DNA of 62,973 nucleotides, taken from a virus. The number at the start of each line of letters is the position of its first letter. Within the stretch, counting starts at the first letter, position 1. This document shows positions 5,728 to 30,230 of the stretch, piece by piece. The notes beneath the pieces were generated by a model. That model made no database searches, was not told where the DNA came from, and saw only the letters and a program-made list of their open reading frames with translations. The position numbers and the translations under genes are program-made. The DNA lies in IMG/VR virus record IMGVR_UViG_3300036761_000576, positions 1-62,973 of that record; one strand, written 5' to 3'.

Positions 5728-5979
5728 TCATGCCGCTTCCTTCGTCGGCATCGGCTTGCCCCGTATCACCGCCCAGTCGATGTCAGGTCGCAGCTCCTCG
5801 ACCGTCACCGCACCCTCAGTTACGCGCTCGATCTCAATGGCGCGATCCGTTGGCAGAGGTCTTGCCCCAGTGCACCACTGCGAAACCATAGAAACCGAAA
5901 CACCAAGGCGATTGGCAAGAGAGACCTGCGAACCAACTTCCCCGCAGGCTTTCCGGATTGCATCAATGGAGGCACTCAT
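5728..5979 (-). CDS. Cro/YdaS-like repressor, first gene of the early operon
   Basis: Eighty-three residues from the ATG at 5979 (MSASIDAIRKACGEVG). GSQVSLANRLGVSVSMVSQWCTGARPLPTDRAIEIERVT is a typical YdaS/Cro helix-turn-helix, with SVSMVSQW as the recognition helix. The C-terminus is a short dimer-type tail. There is no ribosome site before the ATG, and the best promoter (TTGACT 6012-6017, TACATT 5988-5993) puts the transcript start within a few bases of it, so the mRNA is probably leaderless. It is divergent from the repressor at 6059. Confidence 0.8.
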   Translation of the reverse strand: MSASIDAIRKACGEVGSQVSLANRLGVSVSMVSQWCTGARPLPTDRAIEIERVTEGAVTVEELRPDIDWAVIRGKPMPTKEAA

Positions 5980-6058
5980 GGAAACACAATGTACAGCATT
6001 GCTGACTGCCAAGTCAACTGCATTGCTGTTTCCTAGGAAACGGGCAGATTATTCAGCG
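5980..6058. promoter_or_regulatory. divergent operator/promoter region (OR-like)
   Basis: The 79-bp gap between the divergent regulators holds CAGCATTGCTG at 5994-6004 and CTGCATTGCTG at 6018-6028, plus a perfect 14-bp palindrome GTTTCCTAGGAAAC at 6028-6041. Minus promoter: TTGACT 6012-6017, 18 bp, TACATT 5988-5993. Plus promoter, weaker: TTGCTG 6023-6028, 18 bp, GATTAT 6047-6052. The operators lie in the spacer and beside the -35 of the minus promoter, so a bound repressor would block it. Both predicted transcripts start at or next to the start codon. Confidence 0.75.
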
Positions 6059-6622
6059 ATGCTTAAGCGCGACAACCACGCGGCGCGCAAGATCGAGTGG
6101 GCCCTGCAACAGCCGGGGATCACGCCCAATGGGTTACGACGACTAGCTAAACTCAAAAGCAAGTCAGCAGTTTCTGAATGGAAGCGCACCGGGCGAATTG
6201 CTAAGCATCACATCCCACTACTGGCCGCACGAACCAACACGATAGAGCGCTGGTGGCTTACCAAAGACGCCCCGATCCCGCCGACCGTTCAATGGACGAC
6301 AGCAAGAGAGCCGAACGCCACCATCGAGCCAGTTTCCGTCGGACACCGAACGTTGGCTGAGTTGTCGACGGCGCAGGCGAAATTACTCGAGGTTTGGGCG
6401 CGACTGACAAAGACCCAGCAGGCGTCGCAGATGGATCAACTCCAAGCAACGGCGGCGAGCAACATCGAGATTGCCGAGCACCTGGTTGGGCTTGGCATCA
6501 CCCGCGTCATCTCCGACAGTGAAGTCAAAGAAAAATTGCGCCCCGAGGCGGCTCTCCGCGAGGGGATCACCCCTGGGAGTGTTCTCCAGCAGAGCCGCAA
6601 AGAGGTGAGGAAAAAACCATGA
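6059..6622 (+). CDS. CI-type repressor without peptidase domain
   Basis: A 187-residue protein from the ATG at 6059 (MLKRDNHAARKIEWAL). The N-terminal 60 residues form a helix-turn-helix (ITPNGLRRLAKLKSKSAVSEWKRTGRIAKHHIPLLA). The rest, including TAQAKLLEVWARLTKTQQ, is helical and has no S24/LexA serine-lysine peptidase, so induction would not be by self-cleavage. It is divergent from the cro-like gene and coupled (ATGA) to the lipoprotein downstream. No ribosome site is seen, and the transcript from the weak GATTAT promoter would be leaderless, like lambda cI from PRM. Confidence 0.75.
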   Translation: MLKRDNHAARKIEWALQQPGITPNGLRRLAKLKSKSAVSEWKRTGRIAKHHIPLLAARTNTIERWWLTKDAPIPPTVQWTTAREPNATIEPVSVGHRTLAELSTAQAKLLEVWARLTKTQQASQMDQLQATAASNIEIAEHLVGLGITRVISDSEVKEKLRPEAALREGITPGSVLQQSRKEVRKKP

Positions 6623-7260
6623 ACATCACGGTGGTCGCCACGTGCGCAACGCTGTTGCTCGGAGCTTGTGCGGGAGCTAAACCTGCGAACACCCAACCGC
6701 TCAAACCAGGCGCATCGAACTACTGGGAAGTCGTTTTCGCTGAGTGTGAGGCGCTTGGATACCGTCCTAAGACACCGGAACTTACGGCCTGCGTCGACAG
6801 GCTGGATACAACGAAATACGCACACCGATACGCCCCCGAAGGGGCACCTATATCGCTTAGCCAAACACCGCCGCCCAAACCTCAACCCTCGGCTCAAGCG
6901 CCCGCGGCCGTCTCCGTCCAGGAGGAATGTCGCGTCGTCCCAAGCAGTCCATACGACGATCCCCGCTTGCTGCGCCAAATGGCCACCATTTACTTGAAGC
7001 ATGGCCTATCCGAAGGAACGGATTTCCTGCAACGCGCATCGAACGCGCAGCAAGAGATAGACCTCCAGGAACGCGCATGCGCGCTGTGCGCCAATGCTGG
7101 CCTTGCCAACGGTAGCTTGGAGCGAAGCAACTGCGTTGCCGATCAAGTCGCAAAGCATCGGCGACCAGAGCGCGCAGATCCGTCACCAGGCTTTCGACAA
7201 AAGAGCAGCGTGACGTGCCGAAAGAATGTGCTCGGCGACGTGACCTGCACCGAAGACTAA
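6619..7260 (+). CDS. lipoprotein in rex position, possible superinfection-exclusion factor
   Basis: A 213-residue protein. Residues 1-17 form a lipoprotein signal (MNITVVATCATLLLGAC) with lipobox LGAC, so the mature chain should be anchored by Cys17 to a membrane. A proline-rich stretch at about 75-95 follows. Residues 121-139 (MATIYLKHGLSEGTDFLQR) match residues 67-85 of the internal virion protein at 28526-29854 at 14 of 19 positions. The C-terminal part has several Cys pairs. It is coupled to the repressor gene, so it should be made in lysogens. Exclusion of DNA entry is inference from location, anchoring and the shared motif. Confidence 0.75.
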   Translation: MNITVVATCATLLLGACAGAKPANTQPLKPGASNYWEVVFAECEALGYRPKTPELTACVDRLDTTKYAHRYAPEGAPISLSQTPPPKPQPSAQAPAAVSVQEECRVVPSSPYDDPRLLRQMATIYLKHGLSEGTDFLQRASNAQQEIDLQERACALCANAGLANGSLERSNCVADQVAKHRRPERADPSPGFRQKSSVTCRKNVLGDVTCTED

Positions 7261-7264
7261 GCCT

Positions 7265-7519
7265 ATGGCCGACGAACCACTGATCCAATCGCTTGTCGAT
7301 CGCGTGAATCGACAGGAAGCAGAGTTCGCAGTCCTGCGCACGCTCCTCGTGCTCGTGGCGCGACAAGCATCAGACCGCGCCGCTCTACTGCGAGAATTCG
7401 ATCGCTCCATGGAGGACCAGACGGTCAGAACCATCTACGCCACCATGCCAGAAGAATTCCTCGAAGAGCTGCGAATCGCGGCGTCGGTGTTTCGAGAACA
7501 ATTACTCGACGACGGCTGA
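7265..7519 (+). CDS. small coiled-coil protein of the immunity region
   Basis: Eighty-four residues (MADEPLIQSLVDRVNRQEAEFAVLRTLLVLVARQ), predicted almost wholly helical with heptad-like spacing. It starts four bases after the lipoprotein stop and likely shares the repressor transcript. The 3' end overlaps (tail to tail) the possible minus-strand gene 7425-7769. No domain recognised. Confidence 0.65.
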   Translation: MADEPLIQSLVDRVNRQEAEFAVLRTLLVLVARQASDRAALLREFDRSMEDQTVRTIYATMPEEFLEELRIAASVFREQLLDDG

Positions 7520-14338: not shown

Positions 14339-14487
14339 CAGAGTCTCCTTCGGTCGTTGCGACGGTAGATGACCTCGAGGAACAGCGCCAACGCGGCGAC
14401 AACGATCCCGACCACGCCGAACACCAGAACCGCCTCGGGGTCGAGCAACAGTGCCAGGACCGTGATGCCGACCAGGAAGTAGCTCAT
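14338..14487 (-). CDS. small two-helix membrane protein
   Basis: Forty-nine residues (MSYFLVGITVLALLLDPEA) with two hydrophobic helices, FLVGITVLALLL and VLVFGVVGIVVAALALFLEVIY, and a very basic tail (RRNDRRRL). It is translationally coupled to the giant gene by ATGA. It may be a membrane partner for DNA entry or a holin-like protein. The position right behind the ejection protein favours the former, but this is inference. Confidence 0.6.
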   Translation of the reverse strand: MSYFLVGITVLALLLDPEAVLVFGVVGIVVAALALFLEVIYRRNDRRRL

Positions 14488-17400
14488 TGCAGCGCCTCTC
14501 TGACCGCTGGGCGCATACCCTTTGGCGCGGTCTTCGCAATCCGTTCCTCGCGCAGCGCCCGCATGGCCTTCACCCTCTGGTTCACGCCGGCCATGTCGAT
14601 GCGGATGCGGGAGTCGGGGTTCTTCTCGTTCCAGTCGACGAGATCCGCGCGCGCGCGCTCGACCTTCGATGGGTCGTTCTCGAACCGCCCTTCCGCCATG
14701 AGGCCGGCAATATCGCCCTGCACCCTCTTCGCAAGCCCGATGTCTTGCTGGATGTCGCGGGCCTTGCGGGAGGCCACGGCAACGCTTTGCGGTTGCAGGC
14801 CGATCGCCTTCGCCGCGGCGTCCGCGCCCGTGGTCTCGATGACGTTCCTGCCCTTGAAGTCGCGGTAGTGGCCCGTCTGCATCATGTCGATGGCCTTCAT
14901 GGCATTCTGCACCGCCGTCGGCGCCATGGACACGGCCACACCCCGCTTGTCGCCAGCTACCGCGGCGTCCCACGCCCTGCCGATGCCCTGCACAAAGCCG
15001 CCGATCGGCCCGAAGGCTTCGTTCACGTCGCGGGTCTTGTCAACCTCGGAGCGTTTGAGGATGGCCGTGCCGGGGACCATATTCCCGAAACCCAGCCGGC
15101 CAATATCCACCGGGAAGCCGGTCACGCCGGAAATCCCGTGCATCATGAAGTCGGGCGCGAGATCGTGCAGCCACCGCTTGCTGTTGGTGTTGTAGCCGAT
15201 GGCCTGGCCGATGGTGTCGACCAGATCCTCGAGGTCTTCGGCGAACGGCAAGCCTTGCAGCCCTGCCGCGAAGATCAGAATGGCGATGGCCAAGGCTTGC
15301 TCGCGCGGCGGGAGCCGCTTCACGAACTCGACGTAGGCGATGCTGAACTGCTTGAAGGTGAACAGCGTAGCCCCGACGCCGCTGCGCGCCCACACGGGGC
15401 GATTGGCGCGGCTGTAGACGCCCTGGGTGTCATGCACGGCCTTCTCGGCGAAGGCGTAGGCGTCCGTCACCCCTGCCTTCCTGAACTGCTCGGGCGTCAT
15501 GTCCTGCGCCGCGCGCCACGCCGCGATGAACGTGATCTTGCGGTTCCACGCCTCGGCCAGCGAGAAAAGCGAGCCCCACGCCCGCAGGAACTTCCGCGCC
15601 GGCAGCGAGCCCCCAAGCGTGCGGATCGACTCCGCGTACAGCGCGTGAATCTCGTGGGGCTCGGTGATCCCTTCCTTCTCGGCCTGGAGTAACGCGGCCC
15701 TCAACGCGGGCTCGTTGATCGGCCCGCCCGCCGCTGCTCGAGCTGCGCCCGTGAGCGCCTTGGCCGCGCCGGCGGGCCCCGTGAATTGCGACAGGTACGC
15801 CAAGGTCTGGGTGACCGGCTGAGTCATGTTGACCAGTGCAGAAGCGATGTTGCCGCCGAGGTAGTTGACGAACAGGAGGCCCCGAATAGCCGAAGCCTCC
15901 TCGGTCGGGTTCTGCACGTAGTCGAGGAGCTTGATGGCGTGATCTTTGACGTCGCCGCGGCCCAGTTCGTTGACCGCTTCCCGCATTTCGCCAAGGTGGT
16001 AATTCTTGCTGGCGAGCCGCGCGTTGCTGGTGACGAAGGTTGCCAGCACGCGCGTCACGTCCTGCTCGAAGCCGGGCGTGCCCTGCCGGTGCATCAGCCG
16101 CTTCAAGGCGGAGCGATTGTTGACCGCCAGACGAAGGTACTGCTGGAAGACCGCGGACTCCTCGGCGCCGATCGCGTGCGCGAACAGCTTGAGCGAGTCG
16201 AGCGAGATCCCGCCGTAGAGCTTGTACGCCTCCTTCGACATGATGTTGGTGTAAACCTCGGCGTCGGGGTACTCCTCCTTCATGCGCCGCTCCATTCGGC
16301 GCTGCTCGGCCTGGCTCTCGTACATGCCGAAGAAGATGGATTCCTTCGTCTCCGGGTCCTGCACGAACACCGTGTACTGCCCGAAGCGCATCAGCGGGGC
16401 GTAGCCCTCGGCCTTGAGCGTCTTGGCCCGGTCGAAGGTCTTGCTGACGTCGGAGAGCATCTTGGCCGAGATGTCACGGGTGGTTTCCCACGCTTTCACG
16501 GCGAAGTCGTGGCGGGCTTCCAGCTCGGCACGCTGCTCCTTCCGCGCGGCCTCCACCGTGAGCCGGCCGCCGGGGCCCTTCGCCGCCTTGAGGAGCGGCG
16601 CCGTGGCCTTGTCGAACGCCTTGAGTTCGGCCGTGCGCTTGTCCACCGCGCGCCGGTAGCCCGCTTGCTCCCTCTCGGCGATCGGCCGCAGGAAAGCATC
16701 ATAGATACCAGGAGCGCCGACGGGATCGGCCTTCGCCGCCTCGATCACGCTCCGCGACAGCGGTGTTCCGCGAACCTGCTGCGCGGCCGAGGACGCCGCC
16801 AGGTCGTCGAGCGAGCGGTCGAGCGCGGCCCGTGCTTGGCGGTACAAGTCCACTTGCTTCGCGGTCAACCCCTTCGCCGCGAGTTCCTCATCGGAGTACA
16901 CCTTCTTGTCTTCAAGCGTGCCGTCGAAGATCGCCTTCGCCACGGCGTCGAAGTCGGCGCGCGACGGAGCCTGCTTGTCCTTCGAGCGCAGGATGTTGGG
17001 CAGGACGTCCCGGATGTTCTTGAGCGTCGGCAGGAGATCCGGCGCGAGCTGCGCCGCGTCCATCGAGAACTGGTTGGTGTCGTTGATGTACTTCTGAGCG
17101 AGCCGGAACACCGGCTTGAACGCGGGCACCGTCTCGGCGATGTGGTACATCGTGCCGACGCTCTTGTGCCACCAGTTGAGGGTCTTGCTACTGTTCAGGA
17201 GGAAGGCGAGGCGGTCCTGAATGCCCTCGCGGGTGACGGGGCCGAGGCCAGGGATGGCGCGAGAGAACATCGGCATCCCCGCCAGAGCCTTCTCGCGCAT
17301 AGCCGGGGTGATGTCGAAGCCCTGTTGCTCGCCGACCTTCGCGGTCTGCACCAGTTTCCCGCCGAACAATTCAGCGAGGTTCGCGCTGCCGTGTTCTTGA

Positions 17401-20400
17401 ATAGCTGTGCGGAATGGCACTCCCTGCCCCATTGCCTCCACAACGCTGCGGAGTTGGCGCTCCAGCGTAGCGCCATGATCCTTCTCGTGGATCTTTTCGT
17501 GTACGTCTCGCGCCGTCGGTATTGGCCCCTCGTAGTGCTGGAACTGGACCCCGTTCTCCACCACGCCCTTGAACGTCCGGACGCGCTCACCACCTAATTT
17601 CTTGAGGATGTCGTTGGCGACGGAGGGGATGATGCGATCGTAGAAGCCGCGCATTCCTGAGCCGCCTATGTCGAGGCCCTCTCCTGAGAGTTCTCCCTTG
17701 TGCTTCGCGGCAATCTTCTCGGCCACCTCCTTGCCAAGCACTTCGTCGAGACCCTTGCCCACTAGGCGTTCAGCGTGGACGTTGGTGTGGTGGTCGACGA
17801 TCTTTCCGCCGTCTACGGTGAACCGGATCGAGCCGTGGCCGACCGTGGTGATCTTGACGTCCTGCTTCGTCGTGCCGATGACGGGATCCCACTTGATGCC
17901 GTCTACCTGCGATGACAGGGAGTACCGCTTGTTCTGCTGATCTCCCGTTGTCCACGCCACCGCATCCATGCCATTTTCGGACGCATAACGTATGGCGCGC
18001 TTGAGTGCCAGGGCGACCCAGGCTTCGGTCTTCTGGACAAAGGGGGCGGGAGGCGGGGCCGCTCCAAGTCGATCGTACTCAGGAGTAATTTCGTCCATGC
18101 GCGCCAGGTCTGCCGCGCCGGCATTGCGCATATCTCCACCGGATCGCGCTTGAATGGCAGCGCGCTCGGCCGCAAGTTTGGCGCGTTTGTCGTTGTCGTT
18201 GAATCCCTCCTTCCGCCCCTTCTGCGCCCAGTCGGATTGAATCTCCTCGATGAACAGCACCGGCTTGCCCTCGGCGTCGGTGCGCTCGTTCATCCGAACG
18301 TGCACCAGCACGTTGTCGGCAACGTCGGAGTAGTGGCCTTGGCGGAAGTCGCGGTTGCCGTTTGGCGTGTTCCGCATTTCCTCGACCAGTCGATCGCGCT
18401 GGCTGTCGCTCAGGTTTTCGAGGATTGACGTGCCAAATAGGCGCTTTGCCACATCGCCGGTCGTGGTTTCTCGACGCGGCAGCGTGATAAGCAGCTCGCG
18501 GTAGTTGCTGCCGCCGGGCTGCTGCCATTGGGCGTGCTTGGGTTCTCCCGGTCTAGGACCGGAATAGTTTGACTCGTTATCGCGTAGCTCGCCCAAGCGC
18601 GTTGCCGGCGCGGCAACATTGCTGTGCAGCGTTTCAACCGTGTCGCCTTCATCGGGCTCAGAGTCGGGATCGGCGTTTGTCCATTCCCGCGTCCCTTCAT
18701 CAAAGACGAAATACATATCGTCCCGATCGCGCGTGAGGCCCTGCAACCGGCTCTCGTAGTCGATGTCCGGTGTGTAGCCAAGATGGGCGAGTCGCGCCGT
18801 CAGGCTTTCAACGGTGTCGCCGTCGCTCTCCGCCTTCTTCTCGCCAAGCACCCTCTCATCCAGCCGCGTGCCGTTCTCGTCGAGGAAGGCGCCCACCTGG
18901 TCGCGCGTGACGCGGCGCTCGAGCTTGAGGAAGTCGGTCAGGCCGGACCATTCCAGCTCGTCTTTCTTGAACGTGCCGTCCTTGGTGCGGGCTTCGAGCC
19001 AGCGCGCGAGCTGGGGGCTGTCGATCACCCCAGCCTTGGAGAATGGAGCCTTCGCCGCGACGGACTCGGCGAGAGCGGAGCGCCAGATCGGGGCCTTGCG
19101 CGAAGCGGCCGCTTGGCGGTCGCCTGCCGGTCGCTCGGCGGTCGCTTGGCTACCGCGCAGCACGTCGTTGACGTAGGCAAGCGCCTCGGCGTCGGTGAAC
19201 CCCTCCATCGCATCCGCCATGCGCGTCAGGCCCATCTTCCGCAGCCAGGTCTGCACGGCCGCAAGGAAGCGGCCCAATCCCGTCAGATTCGCCCCGCGCT
19301 GGCCAAGATCGGCAAGCGCCTCCTCGTAGGATTGGAAGCGGTGCGCGAACTCTGAACGCCCGTCCCGGCCGTTCGCTGCGCGCCACGCCGCCGCGGCCTT
19401 GCGAAGATTGGGATTGATCGCCACCAGGCGGTCAAACTCCCCGCGGAGCGCGGGCTCGCGCTTGAGCTGGTCATGGAACAACTCGTGGAACGCGACGTGC
19501 TCGACGTCGACCGGGCTGAACAGATTGTCCGCGACGAAGTAGAGTTTGCCGCCGTGCGATGCCCCGCGGGTGTCGGGGCTGGCCTTGAACGGCAGATCGG
19601 CGACGTGCTGGACGACGACGCGCTCGGGCCATGCCTCGCTGGTGAAGGAATCGACTTGCGAGTGGACGCCAGAAGCGGAAAGCCCGCCAGAGGGGCGGGC
19701 TTCATTGGCGCGCGATTGCGCGGAACCGGGAGGCTCTACTTTTTCGGCAGGTTGAATGCCTTTTGCATGTAGGCGCGCGTCTCGTTCCCGTTCTGCCGCA
19801 CCCGCTCGATTTCTGAGGGAGTCAGCATCCCGGAAGCTGAGGATGTACCCCGCCTCCGCTGCGGTGAGGGCGGCGGGCTCGATGTTGAATATTTCGCGGA
19901 CGGCATCGCCATAGCGTTGTTCGACCTGGTTGATCTGCTGCTTAGACGCCTGCATTGTCGGCGTTCGGCTGGCGTCCGTCAACACGACCGTTCCGATGAC
20001 TTCGCCGCCCCCGGCCCGGATGTGGTCGCCCAACTCCGCCAGCGTGCCGCCCATCGTGCTCACGTCGTCGGCCAACACGTACCGCGCACCAGAGACAACT
20101 TCGCCGTCGAACACGGGTCTGGCGATAAGGCGCTCCATCGCCTTCGCGCCGGTGTGGAATGCGTGGTTCGTCTGCACGATCACCGGCGCCAAAGCGCCGT
20201 CGGTAGCCTCGGCGTAACGCGCCGCCAACGCTGCCGGCAGCGCGTTCAGACCACTTGCCTCTTCCGCGTGCGGCCACGCGAACAATGCACCACCCCCGAA
20301 CGCCTTGCGGGCCTCGTCGAGATCATCCTCGTTCACCAAGTCGCGAACCAGGCGCTCGGCCGCTTCCGGGTCGCCAGCCTTCGCCGCGATGTAGTCGGCG

Positions 20401-23400
20401 TGCCCTTTGAGCGCGTTAGTGTTGCGCGAGCTGGCGATCTGCTTGGTTTCCGCTGGCAGTCCTTCCCGCCTTGTGGCCCGCGAAAACATCGCCTCGCCTT
20501 GGTCTGGCGAGTAGGTCGCCTCTTGTTCCTTGGCGTACCAAGATGGCAAATCAGGCGACTTCCTGCCCGTCTTATCAATGCGGGAAACAGGAACCTTGCC
20601 GGGAGCCATGTCGCCACGCGCGGCCACGGAGTTCTCATCTCCGGCCGCAATGACGTCGCCGAAAACGCCAGATTTCCGCAGCAAGGCGTACTCGGGGCTC
20701 ATGGCGCTGGTAGGCGTTACCGCAAACAGGTAGCCGCCAGTACCGGCCTGCAACATGGCGCGGCGCACCGCCGCGAGCATTCTGATGCTTTCTGGCCGGG
20801 TCTTTGGTTGCAGCGAGGGCACCGGAATTTCGGTGACGAGCCCAATGAGTCCGCGCGGGCCGCCAGTAGCAATCACGGTCACGTAGCCGTCTCGCGTCTG
20901 GAGCTCCTTTGCTATGGCCACCATCTGGCTCGGGCCGGTGATTGGACGGCCGAGCATCGGGTGCGGAGCTTCGACATTGCTGCCAGCGAGCGCCTTGCTA
21001 TTGAGTTCCGGAGCCGGCACCGTGCTGTCCGTGCCGTCAGCGAGGATCTGGTGAAACTCGTTGTGGTCGATGATGACGTGGCCGACGAAACCGGGCACGT
21101 TTTGCTTGAGCATGTCCGTGAGGAAGCGGTCAGACCCGGACGCCTCCGCCAATCCCGACGGATGGTTGTGCAGGAGCCAGTACCGCACATGACCAAATTG
21201 CCCCTTGCCGAACCGGAGCTTGTCGGCCGCAACGTGCTGGTCAAGGTCCGCGGGAAGGTGAACCGCACCAGGAAGGCGCGACGAATACGTACCCTCGCCG
21301 ATGACTCGATCGGCGCTGTCGACGTAGAAAACGCGGAAGGTCTCGAACCGGGGATCGCGCAGCACTTGCGCGATCGTGGCGAGATCCTGCGGGCCCCGGA
21401 CTTGCTGCCCGACGAGCGTTACACCGCCGTCGGCGCGGAAGTCCTTGGAGATACGGCTACCAAGTAGGGCGGCGCCGTGCCGTCCAGAACCAGCGGGCCC
21501 GAAGATGCGCCTTTCCGCAGCAGCGAGAGCAGCTCGGCCGTCGTCCTTTTGCGCGTCGGTAGTGCCGGGGCGGGTTTTAAGTGGCTCATACGGGTCAGAG
21601 AAGGGGTCGGGTGGGGTTGGTTCGCCGGTCTTATTGTACGCCCCGTTGGGCTCGTAGAGCGCAATCCCCTTGTCGGTTTCCTTGGTCTGGATGACATTGA
21701 AGAGATCATCAAACGCCGCGTCGATCGCCGCACGCTCCGCGCCCTCGGGGTAGGGCTTCATGTCGAAGGCCGCGTAATACTTGTTTTCGACCGCGTGTAC
21801 CAGATAGTCGCTCTTCTTCTGCGCCGCCGCGAGCTGGTCGAAGATGTACGACTCGAACGCGCGGGCACCCATTTCGTGCCTGGTGCTCCAATAGTCAGAC
21901 GCACGCAGTCCGTCGATCTTATTCGCTTCGTTGAGGTACTCGGTCCCGGTTCTGCGCTCCTCGATCGTGCCCTTTTGCGCCGAGGCAACGCGGTCCTGCA
22001 TATCCTTCACGCTCTTGATGTGCCAATGCAGTCGCCGCCCTTGGGAATCGGGGTCGGCTCGGTCGAAACTGCGACCACGCACTTCCTTGTAGATCGCATT
22101 GAGCACGCGCACTACTTCCGACGATCCATAGCCGAATGAAAAACGCCCAGCGCCCTTCGGTGGCGGCACTTGGACGTCGGCCCCATTGTCGCCAGCCATC
22201 GCGCGCTCGGCCAACGCATCCCACGCCTTCAACTGCGCGGGCGTCGCGGCGCCTTTCTTCTGGCCGTATTCGGCCTTCTTGGCAATCTCGGAGCGAAGCC
22301 CGTCCAGGTTGTACTTGAGGCTCTCCTGCGCCGTGGTGAGGCGGCGCGTGGCTACGTTCTCATCGACGGCTACACCCTCCTTCTTGGCCGTCATCGTGTC
22401 GACCAGATGCTTGAACGCGGCGATCAGCTCAGGGCGCGCATCGGTGTTGTACGGGAAGCCGTAGGTGGCGTAGGGCCGCCCCTCTTTCAGCACCGTGCGG
22501 GCGCGCTGCGCCTTGGCATTGTCGGCGCTCTTGGTCAGGTAGTCGTCGAGCGCGTGGAACCACTCGTGAGCGAGGGAGCCGGCGCCCCTGATCTTCGTCA
22601 GGTTGATGACGACCTTATCGGGCCCGTAGTGCGCCGCTGCTGCGCCAACGCCTCCGGTCCCGCGTGCGCCGAAAGCCACCGCAAGCTCGCCGTTCAGGGA
22701 CAGAGCCTTGGCCGGCACGCCGATGGTGTCCGCCAGATCGTGCAGTGCGTCGTAGGCGTGATTGAGCGCCGCCTGGCCGTCGCTGCCCATATTCCAGTTG
22801 CCAAACTCACCAGCGCGGAAGCCGAACGCTTCCTGGAACATCTTGGTGGTGACGTCGCCCTTGCGTTTTGGCTCGCCTACGCGCTCGATGCGATCGAGCC
22901 AAGGCTTCTCGGGGAATTGAAACTTGTGTTCAATGATCGGCACGGGGTCGGACGCCATCGCTTTCATGGCATCTTCTTCCGTGGCGAATCCACCCTTCAC
23001 CAGCGCCCGCTTGCGCTCGCCGATTTGACGGAAAATCCCCTGCTTCTGCTCGCCGTCCTTGTCCTTGTACGAATAGACGCGGTGATTGCGCGCGACCTCG
23101 GCCAGCGGAATCGCGGCGAGCGCGTCCTCTTCGGTGTCAAACACCGTGCGCGAGGCGCGACTCACAGCGCCGCTGGCGCCGCGGTTGGCGCGCATCAGCT
23201 CCCACTTGCCGGTCTTCTTCGGTTGTTCCGCGTTCCGCATCGGGAACGAGTACGACGACGAACGCTCGAGCTGCTCCATAGCGATGTACGGACGCGCCCA
23301 TGCCGGGCGCTCGTCGACGACCTTCGAGATCGTGCCGCGCTTGCCAAGCGGAGTGGCCGTATCCTTGCGCGCGCCGCCGATCTTGGGCCCAAAATCAGCT

Positions 23401-26400
23401 ACAGACTCGCCCTTGCCGATGGTTTCGATCTCGGTGGCTGGATCGGCCAGCGCCGGTTCGATCGCCTCTACCTGCTTTGCGATTTCCGCGGCTTCGGCGG
23501 CCGGCGGCGTTTCGGCAGTCGGAAACTCGGCCTGCCCCGCAGCGGCGCCAACGTCGCGCTGGCGGCTCGATCCGGTGAGTTGGAACCCGCCGACGCCCTC
23601 GTCAATCGCATCCTTGGCGGCGGCGGCTTGCTTGGCGTCCTCGGCCGCTTTGGCCTTCTTCTCCGCCGCTACGATTTCGGCGTTGGTTTGGGCGGTAAGG
23701 GTGAACGTTTCCGGCGCAACCGTAGCATGGCCCGATGCTGGTGCAGGGCTCGCCTCGCTGCCTTGAGCAATGACTTTGGCGTGGGCATCTTCGTGATCCT
23801 TCAAGAATGCGCGGATCGCGGCCAGAAATCCAGCCTCGTCGTCCGCGTGCTGTATGGACAGGCGCTCTACGGCGCCGTCATCAATCGCCGCAGCCTGGGC
23901 CACCAGATCGACAGCCGCGAGATCGACCGGGCTGTGCGGGTCAAGGCCCGCGTCGCCAAAGAGCGCCTCCGGCGTGGCAATGCCCGCGAATTCGTCACCG
24001 GCGGCATGTGCTTGCGCTGCGGCCTCTTGCTCGAGGCCGATTTCCTCCCGGCGCTCCGCCAACTGCTCGAATTGAACTTCTTCGCCGCGGACCCCTCTGG
24101 CATAGGTTTTGTTGCCCGCCAGCTCGCGCTGAATCAGATCGACAAGGCGATTGGAGGCTCCGGTAACCTGGTCGGCGTCGTTCTCCGTCAGGTAGTTGTA
24201 GCCCTCCAGGACGCCGGCCATGTCGTCAAGGCCAAGACCGCCCTTTCTGAACAACGATCCAACAAACGGCAGGCGCGGATTGACGTTCTTCTCGCCGACG
24301 ACGTCTGCTCGGTACTCGTTGCTCAAGCCGCCGAGTTTGATGATCGCCGGGATAAGCGAATCGGTCTTCGGATACAGGATTTTCCGGTTCCGCCCCCTCT
24401 TGGCGAGTTCGGCGTCGCGGTCCAGTTGCTTTTCGGAACGCGGTTTGGACGCCTCCTGTTCCGCCAGCATTGCGTGCTGCTGATCCACGCGCATCCTGTC
24501 GCCGAGTCGCTCGGTGATGGCCGTCAGGGTGCCGTTCGGAAGACCTGACGCGCGGAGCTTTTTCACCAACTCGTCGACCGTGATCTTTCCGTTCAAGGCG
24601 TCGACAACGTTCATCTTCGCCTTGACCTCGGCGGCGGATTCGCCCTTCAACGGGGCGGCGTACTCGTAGCGAGTGGCCGGCTTTGTTTTCTCTCGCCCGT
24701 CCTCGGCCATCGTCTGACCAGCGGGCGGTGCAGCGTTGCCGGCCGCAACCCGCGCGCGTTCGGCCTCGCGCGGATCGCCTTCGGGCGGCACCTTGCTCGC
24801 GCGGCCCTGGGGATTGCTGTAGTCGAACTCCAACTCCGTGACGTGAACACGGATAACCGTCGGCTCTCCCTTGCGGACATAGATCGAACGCAACTCGACG
24901 TCAGCCTTTGCGGTCTCGGGGTCGATCGCTACGATCGTTCCCTTGAGACCGGAGTGATAGACACTGTGGCCTTCGGTGTCGTTGCTGATCGCGCCCATTG
25001 GGACGGTCCAATCTCCGACCTTCCATTCGGCAAGCGCATCAGCAACACGCTTCGCCTGTGCGGCAACGGACTTGTCGCGCGCCGCTACGATCGCCTTCTG
25101 CTCATCGGGCGGCAGCTTGCTCCACAGCACACCAGCCTTCTTTTTCGAGTCGACGCCAAGCAAGAAGTTGGTACGCGCATTCGATGACAGGCCAGCCCAC
25201 CACTGATCGAGCGCCTCACCCTGCGATTCGGCGGGTTTGTCAACCTTGGTGCCGTCTTCCTTGTCCCACACGCGCCCGTTGTACGAGATCCGTGCGACCA
25301 ACTTCCCGGTTTCGTCGGTGACGCGCACACCGTTGCCGACCTGAGATACGCCAGCGCCGCTCTTGTCGCGGAACTCCGTCCACTTCGCTTGCGCGTCGGC
25401 CACCGACTCGACCGGGTGCCGTTTGCTCCCCCATTCTGCATAGAGTTGCGTGCGCGGCGCCAACGCCGTTTTCGCAACCTCACCCTTCAACGGGATCTCC
25501 GTCACCTTCTCGTTCTGGTCGGAGAATTCCAGCGTCGAAATCTTGAACTCGCGGCCTTCGAGGGGATTCTTGCCGCCGGCCGTGAGCGTGCCGCGCTTGC
25601 CGTACCCCAGCGTGATGTGCGGCCGGTATTCGGGGAAGGTGTCCGTGTGCGGCAGGGACGCGATCTTGGCGTTCAGGCGATGAAGGTCCGGGCTGTCGAC
25701 CCGCGCCACCAGCACGTCGTAGTCCTTGCCCTCGGGCTGGAATACCTCGAGCTTGCCGATCGTGCCGGTGATCGGAGGCTCGCTCTCAATGAGCTTGCGG
25801 ACGGCCTCGGGGGCGTTTTCGTGCAGGCCGTACTTCACCGTGACGTGCGGGCGGTCCTCGAGCCCCTTCTCGGGATGGCGATCGGCCGGCGCGATCATGG
25901 CCTTCGCGGCGGTCTTGACGTCCTTGGCCAACCCGGACGGCAGCGCGACCTGGGTGGAGTTGAACTCCTGCGGGCCAGCCCCGGGCACCTCTTTCGCTGC
26001 CTCGACCTTGGCCGGAGCCTCACGCTTCTCGAGCTGGATCACCCCCTCGGGCTTGGTCGCCAGGGGCCGCCATTGCAGCGCGTGCGTGCCGTCGTCGGCA
26101 ACGAGGGAATGGGTCGCGGCATCGAAGGTGCCGGCGCCGAATGCCTTTTGGCGGGTCTTGGGAAGGGAGTCGCGCTCGGCGCGCAGGCGTGCTTCGAGAT
26201 CGGTGGTAACGGCAGGGATCTGTGCCTCTGGCGCGGCGGGAGCGGCAGGGATCTGTGCTTGCTCAGTACCCTTCGGCCGGATCACGAACGCCTTGTCGCC
26301 GATCTCCGCAACCGCGTGCGTATCGCCGAGCCCTTGAAGCTCCATGCGGTTGCCGGCCGCCTTCCGCGCCGCGAACGGCAGGCCATCGTTGGGGCGCCCG

Positions 26401-28529
26401 ATGTCGCCGGGCAGCATCCCCGGCGCAGGCGGCGCTACTTCACCGGCGGGAGCAACCGTTGGTATCGCTTCGGCTTGGCCGGGGACTGCGGGGCCCGTGG
26501 CGGCAGGCTCATTCCCTTGCTGGCCCGGTTCCACTCGTCCACTGATACTCCCTGGCTCGCCAGTTTGTCCCGGTTCGCGTTGAAGTACCTCTCCTGTGCC
26601 ATGCTCTTGTAGGGCATTGGGTATCTCCTCGGTTGGTGTCTTCGGCCGCAGTACCCAACCTGTGCCGACCTGTGCAATATCGTGGCTGTCCTCGAGGCCC
26701 AAGCGCTTGATCGCGTTGAGGGCCGGGAGCTTCGCCAAGAACGGGTTGCCGTCGGCTCGGCCAACGTCTCCCGTCTGCATTCCGGCCGGCAATGGCGGCC
26801 CTGTGGGCGCCGCTTCCGGCGCGGCGGGCGTGACGGCAGGCGGAGCGCCCGGTGGCGTCTCCTGCGGCCCGGCAGCGGGCGGCGGTTGCGTTCCTGGAGC
26901 CTGCGGCGGCTTGAATTCGGTCTGCTTTCCACCTTCGTGACCACGAGACACCGCTCCGCCAGCGAGGCCCATACCGAGCCCGGCCGCAGCGCCGCCGAAT
27001 GTCTGGTGCCATACGTCGCGCATCGTGTCGATGCTGGGATCGGCCGCTTGTGCGGATACATTCTCGCCAAGTTGCTGCAACGGATTTTGGACAAGCTCCT
27101 CGCCGGTTTCCACTCCTCCGGTCTTGAGCATCCGCACGAACCGATTTCCGGCCACCTTGCCGCGGAACGCGCTGAATATCATCGCGTCGCCCAGTCCGGC
27201 GAAGGGCATCGTGCCAATGAAGGCGAGCACCGCCGCCTGCGTTCCTTGATTCTTGGCCAAGGCTGCTTTTGCGGCTTCACGATCGCCGCCGTAGCCGTCG
27301 ACGAGTTCCCGGAATGCTGCCGACTTCTCATACAGCATTCCGGTATCCATCTTCTCGATCTCTTCGCGCACGCTACGGTAACTTTGGCCCGCAGCGAAGG
27401 CCCCCTCTCCACCGCCGCCGCCTAACCAGTTCCCGATCTTGGCGGCAGTTTCAACGGAGGGCGTAGCTGCCACAATCTCTTTCGCCGCCGCAGCCTGCGC
27501 CGCTTCTACGGTCAATCCCTTGGCGACGCCAGCACGTGTTGCTTGGGCCAGCACTCCGCTACGCGCCGCTCCCTCAAGCGCAGTCTTCGCCGCCATCTTC
27601 GCCGCGATGGACCCAGCCGCCATCGACGGCACCATGCCAAGCACCATTTCCGGCGCCGAACCGAGGATGCCAATCGCCCACGATTTCGGGTCGGCTGCTG
27701 CGGCACCCTCTTCCCACGGGAACAGGTCCCATCGTTTTTCTGCGGCCGCAGCCCACTCTGGCGTGCGTGCAGCTATCTGCTTCTCTCGCATTGCGTCAAG
27801 CGACGGCATCCCCATCACTTCGCCGAGCTTTTCGATGCCCCATACCACGTTGTCGCCCAACGTCATTTGAAGCAGCGAACGCACGTCCTCGCCGGGGGCG
27901 ATCCAGCCCCCATAGAACTCGTTGCCGATCTTGGAGAAGATGCTGGGTTCCGCTTTCGGCGTTGCGGCCGTCCAGTCGATCGGCAAAGGCGCACCGAGCC
28001 GCGACTCCCAATCCTTCCCGAATTGCCCTGTCGCCGGCAACGCGCGACGCGGGACCAGAGGCTCTCCGGCGTCTGTCGTTGTCGTCGAGTTCGGCGCGAG
28101 GACCCGGGCGGCGGGCGGTCCTGCCTCGCCCATCACCTTCCGCACATAGTCTGGCGTGCGCGTGATCCCGTCTGAGTTGTCGGGAATCCCATTGCCGCCA
28201 GCGTTGAGATCTGCCTGAACGTTGCCAGGGCCGGTATGAAATGCGGCGATACCAACGGGCAATGATCCGAATTTGTTGATCTGCTTCGAGAGATACCCAA
28301 CGCCCATCGAGATATTGCTGCGCCAGTCGAGCGGATCCCCGCCGCCCATTTCCTCGACCGTGGCTGGCATCAACTGCATCATCCCCTTGGCGTTCTTGTA
28401 TGAAACGGCCAAAGGATCACCACGCGATTCGACGCCGATCAATTTCTCGGCGATTGGGCGCGGGACGTTGGGAAATTGCGAAAGGACGTCGGTCAGGTGC
28501 GCGCTGAGTTCTTCCGGGGTCGGCATCAA
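14484..28529 (-). CDS. giant polyvalent ejection-type protein (4681 aa, PLxRFG)
   Basis: One uninterrupted frame, the largest gene here. Visible parts in order: lytic transglycosylase (about 10-110; KLIGVESRGDP, KGMMQLMPAT); hydrophobic patches near 300 and 520; Pro-rich linkers (530-750); 2H phosphoesterase pair HVTVKYG (893) and HITLGYG (973); LPD-type region FGFRAGEFGNW with metalloprotease-like AHEWFHALD (1986); RadC/JAB motif LLHNHPSG with SD downstream (2451); phosphoribosyltransferase loop VLADDVSTMGGT (2818); second HELFHD (3013); NYRELLITLP and FIEEIQSDW block (3350-3430); PLMRFGQ (4046); C-terminal membrane helix (about 4415). Such proteins are packaged and injected with DNA to cut the wall and disarm defences. 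Enzyme activities are inferred from motifs. Confidence 0.92.
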   Translation of the reverse strand: MMPTPEELSAHLTDVLSQFPNVPRPIAEKLIGVESRGDPLAVSYKNAKGMMQLMPATVEEMGGGDPLDWRSNISMGVGYLSKQINKFGSLPVGIAAFHTGPGNVQADLNAGGNGIPDNSDGITRTPDYVRKVMGEAGPPAARVLAPNSTTTTDAGEPLVPRRALPATGQFGKDWESRLGAPLPIDWTAATPKAEPSIFSKIGNEFYGGWIAPGEDVRSLLQMTLGDNVVWGIEKLGEVMGMPSLDAMREKQIAARTPEWAAAAEKRWDLFPWEEGAAAADPKSWAIGILGSAPEMVLGMVPSMAAGSIAAKMAAKTALEGAARSGVLAQATRAGVAKGLTVEAAQAAAAKEIVAATPSVETAAKIGNWLGGGGGEGAFAAGQSYRSVREEIEKMDTGMLYEKSAAFRELVDGYGGDREAAKAALAKNQGTQAAVLAFIGTMPFAGLGDAMIFSAFRGKVAGNRFVRMLKTGGVETGEELVQNPLQQLGENVSAQAADPSIDTMRDVWHQTFGGAAAGLGMGLAGGAVSRGHEGGKQTEFKPPQAPGTQPPPAAGPQETPPGAPPAVTPAAPEAAPTGPPLPAGMQTGDVGRADGNPFLAKLPALNAIKRLGLEDSHDIAQVGTGWVLRPKTPTEEIPNALQEHGTGEVLQREPGQTGEPGSISGRVEPGQQGNEPAATGPAVPGQAEAIPTVAPAGEVAPPAPGMLPGDIGRPNDGLPFAARKAAGNRMELQGLGDTHAVAEIGDKAFVIRPKGTEQAQIPAAPAAPEAQIPAVTTDLEARLRAERDSLPKTRQKAFGAGTFDAATHSLVADDGTHALQWRPLATKPEGVIQLEKREAPAKVEAAKEVPGAGPQEFNSTQVALPSGLAKDVKTAAKAMIAPADRHPEKGLEDRPHVTVKYGLHENAPEAVRKLIESEPPITGTIGKLEVFQPEGKDYDVLVARVDSPDLHRLNAKIASLPHTDTFPEYRPHITLGYGKRGTLTAGGKNPLEGREFKISTLEFSDQNEKVTEIPLKGEVAKTALAPRTQLYAEWGSKRHPVESVADAQAKWTEFRDKSGAGVSQVGNGVRVTDETGKLVARISYNGRVWDKEDGTKVDKPAESQGEALDQWWAGLSSNARTNFLLGVDSKKKAGVLWSKLPPDEQKAIVAARDKSVAAQAKRVADALAEWKVGDWTVPMGAISNDTEGHSVYHSGLKGTIVAIDPETAKADVELRSIYVRKGEPTVIRVHVTELEFDYSNPQGRASKVPPEGDPREAERARVAAGNAAPPAGQTMAEDGREKTKPATRYEYAAPLKGESAAEVKAKMNVVDALNGKITVDELVKKLRASGLPNGTLTAITERLGDRMRVDQQHAMLAEQEASKPRSEKQLDRDAELAKRGRNRKILYPKTDSLIPAIIKLGGLSNEYRADVVGEKNVNPRLPFVGSLFRKGGLGLDDMAGVLEGYNYLTENDADQVTGASNRLVDLIQRELAGNKTYARGVRGEEVQFEQLAERREEIGLEQEAAAQAHAAGDEFAGIATPEALFGDAGLDPHSPVDLAAVDLVAQAAAIDDGAVERLSIQHADDEAGFLAAIRAFLKDHEDAHAKVIAQGSEASPAPASGHATVAPETFTLTAQTNAEIVAAEKKAKAAEDAKQAAAAKDAIDEGVGGFQLTGSSRQRDVGAAAGQAEFPTAETPPAAEAAEIAKQVEAIEPALADPATEIETIGKGESVADFGPKIGGARKDTATPLGKRGTISKVVDERPAWARPYIAMEQLERSSSYSFPMRNAEQPKKTGKWELMRANRGASGAVSRASRTVFDTEEDALAAIPLAEVARNHRVYSYKDKDGEQKQGIFRQIGERKRALVKGGFATEEDAMKAMASDPVPIIEHKFQFPEKPWLDRIERVGEPKRKGDVTTKMFQEAFGFRAGEFGNWNMGSDGQAALNHAYDALHDLADTIGVPAKALSLNGELAVAFGARGTGGVGAAAAHYGPDKVVINLTKIRGAGSLAHEWFHALDDYLTKSADNAKAQRARTVLKEGRPYATYGFPYNTDARPELIAAFKHLVDTMTAKKEGVAVDENVATRRLTTAQESLKYNLDGLRSEIAKKAEYGQKKGAATPAQLKAWDALAERAMAGDNGADVQVPPPKGAGRFSFGYGSSEVVRVLNAIYKEVRGRSFDRADPDSQGRRLHWHIKSVKDMQDRVASAQKGTIEERRTGTEYLNEANKIDGLRASDYWSTRHEMGARAFESYIFDQLAAAQKKSDYLVHAVENKYYAAFDMKPYPEGAERAAIDAAFDDLFNVIQTKETDKGIALYEPNGAYNKTGEPTPPDPFSDPYEPLKTRPGTTDAQKDDGRAALAAAERRIFGPAGSGRHGAALLGSRISKDFRADGGVTLVGQQVRGPQDLATIAQVLRDPRFETFRVFYVDSADRVIGEGTYSSRLPGAVHLPADLDQHVAADKLRFGKGQFGHVRYWLLHNHPSGLAEASGSDRFLTDMLKQNVPGFVGHVIIDHNEFHQILADGTDSTVPAPELNSKALAGSNVEAPHPMLGRPITGPSQMVAIAKELQTRDGYVTVIATGGPRGLIGLVTEIPVPSLQPKTRPESIRMLAAVRRAMLQAGTGGYLFAVTPTSAMSPEYALLRKSGVFGDVIAAGDENSVAARGDMAPGKVPVSRIDKTGRKSPDLPSWYAKEQEATYSPDQGEAMFSRATRREGLPAETKQIASSRNTNALKGHADYIAAKAGDPEAAERLVRDLVNEDDLDEARKAFGGGALFAWPHAEEASGLNALPAALAARYAEATDGALAPVIVQTNHAFHTGAKAMERLIARPVFDGEVVSGARYVLADDVSTMGGTLAELGDHIRAGGGEVIGTVVLTDASRTPTMQASKQQINQVEQRYGDAVREIFNIEPAALTAAEAGYILSFRDADSLRNRAGAAERERDARLHAKGIQPAEKVEPPGSAQSRANEARPSGGLSASGVHSQVDSFTSEAWPERVVVQHVADLPFKASPDTRGASHGGKLYFVADNLFSPVDVEHVAFHELFHDQLKREPALRGEFDRLVAINPNLRKAAAAWRAANGRDGRSEFAHRFQSYEEALADLGQRGANLTGLGRFLAAVQTWLRKMGLTRMADAMEGFTDAEALAYVNDVLRGSQATAERPAGDRQAAASRKAPIWRSALAESVAAKAPFSKAGVIDSPQLARWLEARTKDGTFKKDELEWSGLTDFLKLERRVTRDQVGAFLDENGTRLDERVLGEKKAESDGDTVESLTARLAHLGYTPDIDYESRLQGLTRDRDDMYFVFDEGTREWTNADPDSEPDEGDTVETLHSNVAAPATRLGELRDNESNYSGPRPGEPKHAQWQQPGGSNYRELLITLPRRETTTGDVAKRLFGTSILENLSDSQRDRLVEEMRNTPNGNRDFRQGHYSDVADNVLVHVRMNERTDAEGKPVLFIEEIQSDWAQKGRKEGFNDNDKRAKLAAERAAIQARSGGDMRNAGAADLARMDEITPEYDRLGAAPPPAPFVQKTEAWVALALKRAIRYASENGMDAVAWTTGDQQNKRYSLSSQVDGIKWDPVIGTTKQDVKITTVGHGSIRFTVDGGKIVDHHTNVHAERLVGKGLDEVLGKEVAEKIAAKHKGELSGEGLDIGGSGMRGFYDRIIPSVANDILKKLGGERVRTFKGVVENGVQFQHYEGPIPTARDVHEKIHEKDHGATLERQLRSVVEAMGQGVPFRTAIQEHGSANLAELFGGKLVQTAKVGEQQGFDITPAMREKALAGMPMFSRAIPGLGPVTREGIQDRLAFLLNSSKTLNWWHKSVGTMYHIAETVPAFKPVFRLAQKYINDTNQFSMDAAQLAPDLLPTLKNIRDVLPNILRSKDKQAPSRADFDAVAKAIFDGTLEDKKVYSDEELAAKGLTAKQVDLYRQARAALDRSLDDLAASSAAQQVRGTPLSRSVIEAAKADPVGAPGIYDAFLRPIAEREQAGYRRAVDKRTAELKAFDKATAPLLKAAKGPGGRLTVEAARKEQRAELEARHDFAVKAWETTRDISAKMLSDVSKTFDRAKTLKAEGYAPLMRFGQYTVFVQDPETKESIFFGMYESQAEQRRMERRMKEEYPDAEVYTNIMSKEAYKLYGGISLDSLKLFAHAIGAEESAVFQQYLRLAVNNRSALKRLMHRQGTPGFEQDVTRVLATFVTSNARLASKNYHLGEMREAVNELGRGDVKDHAIKLLDYVQNPTEEASAIRGLLFVNYLGGNIASALVNMTQPVTQTLAYLSQFTGPAGAAKALTGAARAAAGGPINEPALRAALLQAEKEGITEPHEIHALYAESIRTLGGSLPARKFLRAWGSLFSLAEAWNRKITFIAAWRAAQDMTPEQFRKAGVTDAYAFAEKAVHDTQGVYSRANRPVWARSGVGATLFTFKQFSIAYVEFVKRLPPREQALAIAILIFAAGLQGLPFAEDLEDLVDTIGQAIGYNTNSKRWLHDLAPDFMMHGISGVTGFPVDIGRLGFGNMVPGTAILKRSEVDKTRDVNEAFGPIGGFVQGIGRAWDAAVAGDKRGVAVSMAPTAVQNAMKAIDMMQTGHYRDFKGRNVIETTGADAAAKAIGLQPQSVAVASRKARDIQQDIGLAKRVQGDIAGLMAEGRFENDPSKVERARADLVDWNEKNPDSRIRIDMAGVNQRVKAMRALREERIAKTAPKGMRPAVREALQ
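19680..19702 (-). other. terminator-like hairpin inside the giant gene
   Basis: AAGCCCGCC, 5-base loop, GGCGGGCTT: a perfect 9-bp GC-rich stem, followed on the minus strand by TTTCC. It has the same build as the real terminators at 7811, 55087 and 58634, but lies within codons for a low-complexity linker (EARPSGGLSAS) between the phosphoribosyltransferase and second HExxH modules. It may attenuate the transcript or be the relic of a former gene boundary. Confidence 0.6.
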
Positions 28530-29854
28530 CGGACCTGTGACATTGCCGCGTTGAGTTCGCGCAGTTGCGACGGAGAAAGGTTACCGCGTTGTGCGTCATA
28601 CTTCTGTGCCAAGGCCAGCGGCGCGAGGGTGGTCTTGTCGGCGTCGAATGCGGCCTGAACCGCCTTCGGGCCTTCGTCCGCTGCGGATTGCATGGCGAGC
28701 TTGCGCGCCTGAAAACCTTGTCTTCCAGCAACCGAGAATCGGCTCGGCGGCAATGGTGCGACAGGCCCCGCCGGTTGGTCCGGTGGCGGTTCAGGCAACG
28801 TGCGCTGGCCTACCTTCAATTTCGTGGGGGCAGCGGCCCCCGGAGGCAGATTCTTGCCGCTGATGTAGGCGAGCTTCGCCGCATTCGCCGTCTCCCTGTC
28901 GGGATAGGAGCCCACAGGTTGCCACTTGCCGGGCCCACCCATCTTGTCGACCAGAAGGAATCCGTTGCCATCCGGATTCTGGTGCACGTCGACGAACTGG
29001 AAGCGCGTCAACTTGTCGGCCAGCTCAATTGCCTTGCTGGGGTCGGCGCTTGTGTCCAGATTCTTCACCAGGTCTTCCACGATTTTCTTGCGCACCGCGA
29101 CGGGACTTCCTCTCATTTCAGCGATCTCGCGTGCCGAATCTGCCTTGACGCCAGCGACTTCAAGTGCGCTGGAGAAACGATCTTGCTTCTGTTGAGCCAA
29201 CAGATCGTTGCGCTGCCCCATCAACAGGGCGCGCTCTTCCGCTGCCGCGGCCTGCGTTTTTAGCGCTTCGCCGTGCGCCTTCTGATACCCGGCGAGCGAT
29301 TCTTGGCCAGCGGACAGAATCCGGTTGTGCTCCTTCTGCACGCCGATGCTCTGCTCGTGCTGCTGCTGCGCGAAGTAGTCCTTGTACGACAGGAGAGACT
29401 TCCGCATAGCGTCAGGATTGAACGTCGCCGGAGGGCCGTTAGCACGGTTCGCTGTGATGGTCCCGTCGTCGTTTTTTACAATATCCGTCACGTCGTTGAA
29501 GCGCCCCGACCTGTTGAACGCTTGCGCAGCTCCAGCCATGTCACCGGCGTCCACACGGCCGAGAGCTTCGAACACGTTTTCCTTCGCCGCTTCGCGCCCT
29601 CGATTGAGCCAGTCCAAACCTTCCGACAGGCCGTGCTTGTAGTAGATCTGCGCCATCTTGTACATCTGGTCGGGGTTGCTAAAGAACTCGTGCGCAATCG
29701 CGAGATTCGGCAACTTAGGACCGTATTGCGCTCCCTGGTCTTGGCCTCCACCACCAGAAGCAGATGAGCCGCCTTGCGGGACCTCATTGAAGCCGCCAGG
29801 AGGCGCCGCAGGAGGCTCCGTCGGCGTGGCATCAGCGAACGTTTTCGGATCCAT
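28526..29854 (-). CDS. internal virion (ejection) protein with KHGLSEG motif
   Basis: A 442-residue protein, overlapping the giant gene start by 4 bp. Residues 1-45 are disordered (Pro/Gly/Ser). Residues 67-85 contain MAQIYYKHGLSEGLDWLNR, shared with the lipoprotein at 6619. The middle is a long helical, Gln/Glu-rich part (SIGVQKEHNRILSAGQESLAGYQKAHGEALKTQAAAAEERALL), followed by a beta domain (FVDVHQNPDGNGFLLVDKMGG). Position, helical makeup and coupling match internal core proteins that form the podovirus ejection conduit. Confidence 0.7.
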   Translation of the reverse strand: MDPKTFADATPTEPPAAPPGGFNEVPQGGSSASGGGGQDQGAQYGPKLPNLAIAHEFFSNPDQMYKMAQIYYKHGLSEGLDWLNRGREAAKENVFEALGRVDAGDMAGAAQAFNRSGRFNDVTDIVKNDDGTITANRANGPPATFNPDAMRKSLLSYKDYFAQQQHEQSIGVQKEHNRILSAGQESLAGYQKAHGEALKTQAAAAEERALLMGQRNDLLAQQKQDRFSSALEVAGVKADSAREIAEMRGSPVAVRKKIVEDLVKNLDTSADPSKAIELADKLTRFQFVDVHQNPDGNGFLLVDKMGGPGKWQPVGSYPDRETANAAKLAYISGKNLPPGAAAPTKLKVGQRTLPEPPPDQPAGPVAPLPPSRFSVAGRQGFQARKLAMQSAADEGPKAVQAAFDADKTTLAPLALAQKYDAQRGNLSPSQLRELNAAMSQVR

Positions 29855-29855
29855 A

Positions 29856-30230
29856 TCAGCTCAATGTCCAGTCGTAGACAGACGGCAGCGTTCTCGGCAC
29901 GCGCTTCTGAGTCACGAATGGTGTCGGCTCCGTCGGTTGCTGCGCCTCAAGACCAGGCGGTTGCGTGAACATCGGCGTTGGCGGCTGCGCACCAAGGGGA
30001 TTTGGATCTACGGCTTCGGCAGCGGGATTTCGATTTCCAATAAGAGAGGCTTGCGCATCGCGTCGAGCCATCCAATCCTGTTGAAACTTCTCTTGGAAAT
30101 CTTTCACGCTAATACCAGCTTCCTTGTTCGCATTGATCTTGTTGAGCAGTGACCCCGCTTCGAGGCCGCCTCTGAAACCAGACGCCGCGCCACCGGCCAC
30201 GTATCCAATCTGCGAAAGTAGTCTAGCCAT
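29856..30230 (-). CDS. small internal virion protein
   Basis: A 124-residue protein (MARLLSQIGYVAGGAASGFRGGLEAGSLL). The N-terminus is an amphipathic, Gly/Ala-rich helix that could touch membrane, followed by a Gln-rich helix and a Pro-rich tail. The gene sits between the S74 protein and the other ejection proteins and overlaps the S74 gene by 8 bp. A core or ejection role is inferred from context. Confidence 0.6.
   Translation of the reverse strand: MARLLSQIGYVAGGAASGFRGGLEAGSLLNKINANKEAGISVKDFQEKFQQDWMARRDAQASLIGNRNPAAEAVDPNPLGAQPPTPMFTQPPGLEAQQPTEPTPFVTQKRVPRTLPSVYDWTLS

Follow-up and report, generated by a model that had tools for sequence, protein, structure and literature searches.

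In phage lambda the RexA and RexB genes lie directly behind the repressor gene, in the repressor operon. Two other phage systems are known to stop DNA entry from the envelope. Ltp of the Streptococcus thermophilus phage TP-J34 is a lipoprotein encoded in the lysogeny module, which stops DNA injection by acting on the tape measure protein that leads DNA entry, and its active part consists of small helical repeats (PMC3952083). P22 SieA, an inner-membrane protein, also blocks DNA injection, and escape from it arises through changes in the ejection proteins gp16 and gp20 (PMC10883804). In the literature searched, neither of these exclusion proteins is reported to resemble the entry proteins acted on. 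Here we analyse a stretch of viral DNA of 62,973 nucleotides (the window; IMG/VR virus record IMGVR_UViG_3300036761_000576, positions 1 to 62,973 of that record), which belongs to a Bcep22-type podophage and in which the product of a predicted lipoprotein gene, placed directly behind a probable repressor gene, shares 35 residues with an internal virion protein of the same phage. The sequence observation is real, specific and well supported; the function that we attach to it, exclusion of superinfecting phages, is a proposal.

Comparison with described exclusion systems

Like Ltp, the window lipoprotein is encoded in the lysogeny module, its gene lying directly behind the probable repressor gene with a 4-base overlap. 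In contrast, TP-J34 is a long-tailed phage of a Gram-positive host, and Ltp is not described as resembling its own target (PMC3952083), whereas the window lipoprotein carries a piece of its presumed target. No Pfam match to any Ltp model or repeat domain was obtained for the window lipoprotein at E <= 1. It would resemble SieA in being an envelope protein expressed from the prophage, in a short-tailed phage with Gram-negative hosts. SieA, however, is an inner-membrane protein, while the window product is predicted to be a lipoprotein with a single export signal, and it has no PHROG or Pfam match to SieA. With RexA and RexB only the position is common, there being no sequence relation in Pfam or PHROGs. 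If our reading is right, the lipoprotein would work like Ltp and SieA, yet be a member of neither family. The sequence-only reading of this DNA had spoken of a novel route to superinfection exclusion, which goes too far in so far as a lysogeny-module lipoprotein directed against an entry protein is already known in Ltp; what was not found in the literature searched is sequence mimicry of a phage's own protein.

A stretch shared by the lipoprotein and an internal virion protein

The two genes and the stretch that they share are as follows.

6619 to 7260, plus strand: lipoprotein gene, 213 residues, lipobox LLGAC with Cys17, ten cysteines in total; ATG overlapping the upstream stop, GAGG ribosome-binding site
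6952 to 7056, plus strand: shared stretch in the lipoprotein, residues 112-146 (35 residues), containing the 19-residue motif; BLASTP within the window, E 1.0e-6; predicted helix 115-127, turn and start of helix 132-159
28526 to 29854, minus strand: internal virion protein, 442 residues, probable counterpart of BcepIL02 gp69 and Bcep22 gp74 from gene order upstream of a giant protein and weak sequence similarity
29579 to 29683, minus strand: shared stretch in the virion protein, residues 58-92, from the alignment with the lipoprotein; predicted helices 61-73 and 77-102

Residues 121-139 of the lipoprotein (MATIYLKHGLSEGTDFLQR; 6979-7035, plus strand) and residues 67-85 of the virion protein (MAQIYYKHGLSEGLDWLNR) are identical at 14 of 19 positions, exactly as the sequence-only reading had it, both in the positions and in the two open reading frames (ORFs). 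That reading took the 19 residues as the unit; the motif is real, but the actual shared unit is about 35 residues, the best local alignment (BLASTP) running from 112 to 146 in the lipoprotein and from 58 to 92 in the virion protein with 48.6% identity and 41 bits. When all 73 non-overlapping ORFs of the window were compared with one another, this pair gave E = 1.0e-6, and every other pair either belonged to the tandem paralogues at 41-43.5 kb or had an E of at least 0.063. The Smith-Waterman score was 87 against 36 +/- 5 for shuffled sequences (maximum 59 in 1,000 shuffles), and degenerate DNA for KHGLSEG occurred exactly twice in the window. On either side of the shared stretch there was no similarity over that of shuffled sequences (p 0.34 before, 0.81 after). 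A whole shared domain was considered, as both models have the same predicted helix-helix-helix-hairpin order, and was rejected on the dissimilarity of the residues past 146 (p 0.81).

The codon record was examined over the 57-base motif, where bases agree at 16, 15 and 6 of the 19 first, second and third codon positions, respectively, so that the codons do mostly differ at third positions, as had been stated. The same codon is used at 5 of the 14 identical residues, and independent codon choice predicts 5.8 +/- 1.7. Since codon identity stands at the level of independent choice, a recent copy is excluded and no trace of a copy event is left in the DNA; recent duplication was rejected on this ground, and the claim that the similarity is kept at the protein level was borne out. 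Randomised codons together with 14 of 19 residues kept suggest a constraint on the same residues in either protein. Either the amino acids of this segment were held in both proteins while the rest was lost, or they converged, and the data give no direct discrimination between the two.

Both structure models are single-sequence predictions, in which the shared stretch of either protein comprises a helix, the turn after it and half of the long helix that follows, and is thus predicted to be one hairpin like that of a tetratricopeptide repeat (TPR). In the model of the mature lipoprotein (pLDDT 68), helices span 115-127, 132-159 and 167-181, and a pair of C-terminal strands lies around Cys200 and Cys210; the model of the virion protein (pLDDT 78, the one good model of five) has helices at 61-73, 77-102 and 106-116, followed by strands. 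The lipoprotein hairpin superposes on the designed TPRs 5fzq and 5fzr at 1.0-1.4 A over 40 residues, with low Z (3.6-3.8). Structural comparisons with the PDB gave nothing above Z 4.7, a Foldseek search of BFVD returned no match below E 0.02, and the TPR profiles of Pfam matched neither the lipoprotein nor the virion protein at E <= 1.

Searches for other carriers of the stretch

Searches for further carriers required seeds of 8-10 residues or BLAST-level similarity, which distant carriers may escape; within these limits no other carrier of the shared stretch was found in phage records, IMG/VR, plasmids or the contigs of about 85,000 prokaryotic genomes. Among 10,231 six-frame ORFs of related phages (1.29 million residues) the best ungapped 19-residue match to the lipoprotein motif was 8 of 19, and none reached 8 of 19 with the motif of the virion protein. 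Searches by tblastn with the motif alone returned E of at least 3 or nothing, and those with a two-row alignment of the motif confirmed nothing. A motif common among unrelated proteins, which the sequence-only reading had named as part of the outcome that would speak against it, was therefore rejected, the best match being 8 of 19 in 1.29 million residues of related phages. The sole exact-pattern match in IMG/VR (record L003), IYTKHGFCEG in a 663-residue protein of another kind, was taken as chance.

A second ORF like the core of the phage's own counterpart protein was present in none of 13 related phages, barring short N-terminal or chance matches. With no other carrier found, the arrangement is thus peculiar to one lineage. 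The lipoprotein did not match the counterpart virion proteins of related phages (hhalign probability 0.2%), and the window virion protein is resembled more by the lipoprotein (49% over 35 residues) than by its counterparts in other phages. That the lipoprotein matches the protein of its own phage and not those of the relatives is as expected if the two hairpins track each other.

The lipoprotein gene and its probable immunity region

The genes around the lipoprotein gene are as follows.

5728 to 6012, minus strand: Cro/YdaS-like regulator, divergent from the probable repressor (Pfam YdaS_toxin E 1e-22, P22_Cro E 2e-11; phrog_35 E 1e-18)
6059 to 6622, plus strand: probable CI-like repressor, 187 residues, its stop overlapping the lipoprotein start; from its position divergent from the Cro-like gene and a sub-threshold NCBIfam carph-isopro match, E 9e-4
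7265 to 7519, plus strand: ORF of 84 residues from the ORF list, four bases past the lipoprotein gene, possibly on the same transcript; no family match

The N-terminus of the lipoprotein, MNITVVATCATLLLGAC, contains a lipobox (LLGAC, by inspection), and inspection of its hydrophobic segments gave a single N-terminal export segment and no other. The ten cysteines of the lipoprotein, against none in the virion protein, speak for an oxidising compartment. The product would be exported and anchored in the envelope, and its designation as a lipoprotein stands in part: the lipobox and the Cys-rich product fit export, but the n-region of the signal has no Lys or Arg. Residues 43-58 and 157-172 (6745-6792 and 7087-7134) form two Cys-bounded segments of the form C-x4/5-G-x-x-x-x-T/S-x-E-x-x-x-C-V, which suggests that a small disulphide motif has been duplicated within the protein.

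The 187-residue ORF upstream is probably a CI-like repressor, because it diverges from the Cro/YdaS-like gene and has the sub-threshold NCBIfam match. It has no Pfam or PHROG match, and no relatives that could show neighbouring lipoproteins were found in phages or IMG/VR. Its stop and the ATG of the lipoprotein gene overlap by 4 bases (ATGA, 6619-6622), with a plausible ribosome-binding site ahead. The layout is lambda-like, the Cro-like gene running leftward and the regulator and lipoprotein genes rightward. Co-transcription with the repressor, as the sequence-only reading had it, agrees with the 4-base overlap and with the finding of no terminator-like site on the plus strand between the two genes, while the identity of the repressor itself is only probable, the NCBIfam match (E 9e-4) being below threshold. 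A perfect 12-bp palindrome, TTTCCTAGGAAA, lies at 6029-6040, in the gap that separates the Cro-like gene from the probable repressor gene, and is, by reading, a candidate operator.

The virion protein as a presumed ejection protein

The virion protein gene stands in a row that consists of a virion structural protein (phrog_8003), a small ORF, the 442-residue virion protein and then, directly, a giant protein.

14484 to 28529, minus strand: giant DarB-like virion protein, 4681 residues, adjoining the virion protein; an ORF in the same gene order as in BcepIL02, Skulduggery and PEp14

In relatives this slot is occupied by BcepIL02 gp69, Skulduggery gp27, PEp14 gp26 and Atu_ph08 gp22, all of which are annotated as virion structural proteins. 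Pairwise z of the window virion protein was 5.5 to IL02, 4.6-4.7 to DC1 and CSP3 and little to others, with an hhalign p of 0.027. The family profile built without the window protein did not match it, and a profile score of about 195-216 bits was set aside as circular, the window protein itself being in that profile. With BcepIL02 gp69 and Bcep22 gp74 the window protein has in common the slot upstream of the DarB-like giant, a collinear hairpin, and the GD-x-x-GAA and VK-x-DG segments. In contrast, sequence similarity to gp69 is weak, and the hairpin of gp69, KIAETYLAQGDPAKAQAWTDWAD, is without KHGLSEG and about four residues longer. Among the counterpart proteins the hairpin block is conserved above average, but its residues differ from those of the window protein. 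The name ejection protein thus holds to the extent that the window protein occupies the slot of the structural protein BcepIL02 gp69; that it is ejected is suggested mainly by gene order and neighbours, and by the weak similarity to gp69.

A 124-residue ORF (29856-30230, minus strand) ends one base before the start of the virion protein, and its N-terminal Gly-rich segment resembles the N-terminus of the counterparts (profile E 0.05). This segment is absent from the window virion protein, so that one gene may have become two, or the ORF may be the separate small gene present in relatives. In Erwinia phage PEp14 (L034, 7877-8860 and 8871-10067) the gene just ahead of that of the virion protein repeats the Gly-rich segment found at the N-terminus of the virion protein (39% over 33 residues, E 0.01), and a similar profile match to the segment was seen in Itty13. 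The recurring segment may serve internal proteins as a shared packaging signal.

Possible role in exclusion and alternative explanations

From the sequence and by analogy with Ltp and SieA, we propose that a lipoprotein expressed in the envelope of the lysogen would display the phage's own entry-protein hairpin and so block DNA entry of like phages, a reading to which we give a probability of about 0.4. The hairpin in the C-terminal half of the lipoprotein would be an old copy of that of the internal virion protein, or would have been shaped to resemble it. In the lysogen, the lipoprotein would be produced alongside the repressor and fixed by its anchor in the envelope, on the periplasmic side. 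On infection by a phage of the same kind, the virion protein would be delivered with or ahead of the DNA and form part of its passage into the cell. The tethered hairpin might then occupy a partner needed by the hairpin of the virion protein, or pair with the virion protein directly; passage would fail, and the superinfecting DNA would be kept out. The lipoprotein is most economically read as a decoy, or as a subunit whose presence would ruin assembly, and this reading is tentative. The complete scheme, self-exclusion by a temperate podophage through a repressor-coupled lipoprotein that imitates its own DNA-entry hairpin, with both hairpins kept in step by selection, is, taken as a whole, rather unlikely.

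Several points weigh against exclusion. The infection block is proposed from sequence and analogy, and the roles of the 187-residue ORF as repressor and of the virion protein in ejection are both inferred. The signal peptide has no basic n-region, and TPR-like hairpins are common interaction modules. Homologues of the lipoprotein were found neither in phages, IMG/VR, genome contigs and plasmids nor in Pfam, PHROGs and NCBIfam, the PDB giving low-complexity matches only; a comparable lipoprotein was present in none of the 13 related phages.

Of the alternatives, the one that survives best is capture: an old recombination, either inside the phage itself or with a relative, would have brought the hairpin into the lipoprotein gene, where it would now be a structural module only, the lipoprotein having an unrelated role as an envelope protein of lysogenic conversion. 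The shortness of the similarity, the unrelated flanks, the frequent shuffling of modules by phages and the lack of any relative of the lipoprotein in the searches all agree with it. However, the randomised codons make the event old, and yet 14 of 19 residues remain, KHGLSEG among them, while the same region is almost wholly changed in the counterparts of related phages; an unlinked relic should have drifted equally. We regard such a capture as somewhat unlikely. It is a good deal less probable that the two hairpins have one host envelope protein as their common partner, without any exclusion, the virion protein at entry and the lipoprotein in lysogeny for another purpose. This would account for the constraint on the same residues in two proteins and suits a lipoprotein that is likely periplasmic, but no partner is known, and two such hairpins would anyway tend to compete during superinfection. 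Convergence is the least probable of the three, for although helical hairpins are predicted in both proteins, that of the lipoprotein overlays designed TPRs, random-level codon identity is equally predicted, and the shared A, Y, K, G and E fall at what we take to be typical positions of the TPR consensus, so that chance and the demands of the fold might explain part of the likeness, that consensus does not require the KHGLSEG run or D-x-L-x-R, no TPR model matches either protein at E <= 1, and nothing exceeds 8 of 19 in 1.29 million residues.

Were exclusion by the lipoprotein true, a decoy derived from the phage's own entry protein would explain how exclusion can stay restricted to close relatives, and would direct attention to an essential component of the Bcep22-type entry apparatus, which has been little studied. 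It also suggests a cheap general screen, for lysogeny-module envelope proteins that have short stretches in common with virion proteins encoded by the same genome.

Identity of the phage and other features of the window

The window is an IMG/VR virus record whose portal protein is 41-44% identical to those of BcepMigl, BcepIL02, Skulduggery and PEp14. It has the head, internal virion and giant (4681-residue) proteins of the Bcep22 group, phrog_156, phrog_334 and phrog_511, a size of about 60 kb, and an integrase of the Phage_integrase family. The phage is thus of the Bcep22 type and probably temperate. Two IMG/VR fragments from other metagenomes (L004 and L005) are 100% identical to it at the portal protein, where the next relatives reach only 46%, which indicates that the phage recurs. 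Neither the lipoprotein gene nor that of the virion protein was found in these two short contigs or in other related records. Four tandem paralogous ORFs of 203-245 residues, with 50-58% mutual identity, lie at 41060-43531 on the minus strand, in the place of several related tail-fibre genes in Bcep22-type phages.
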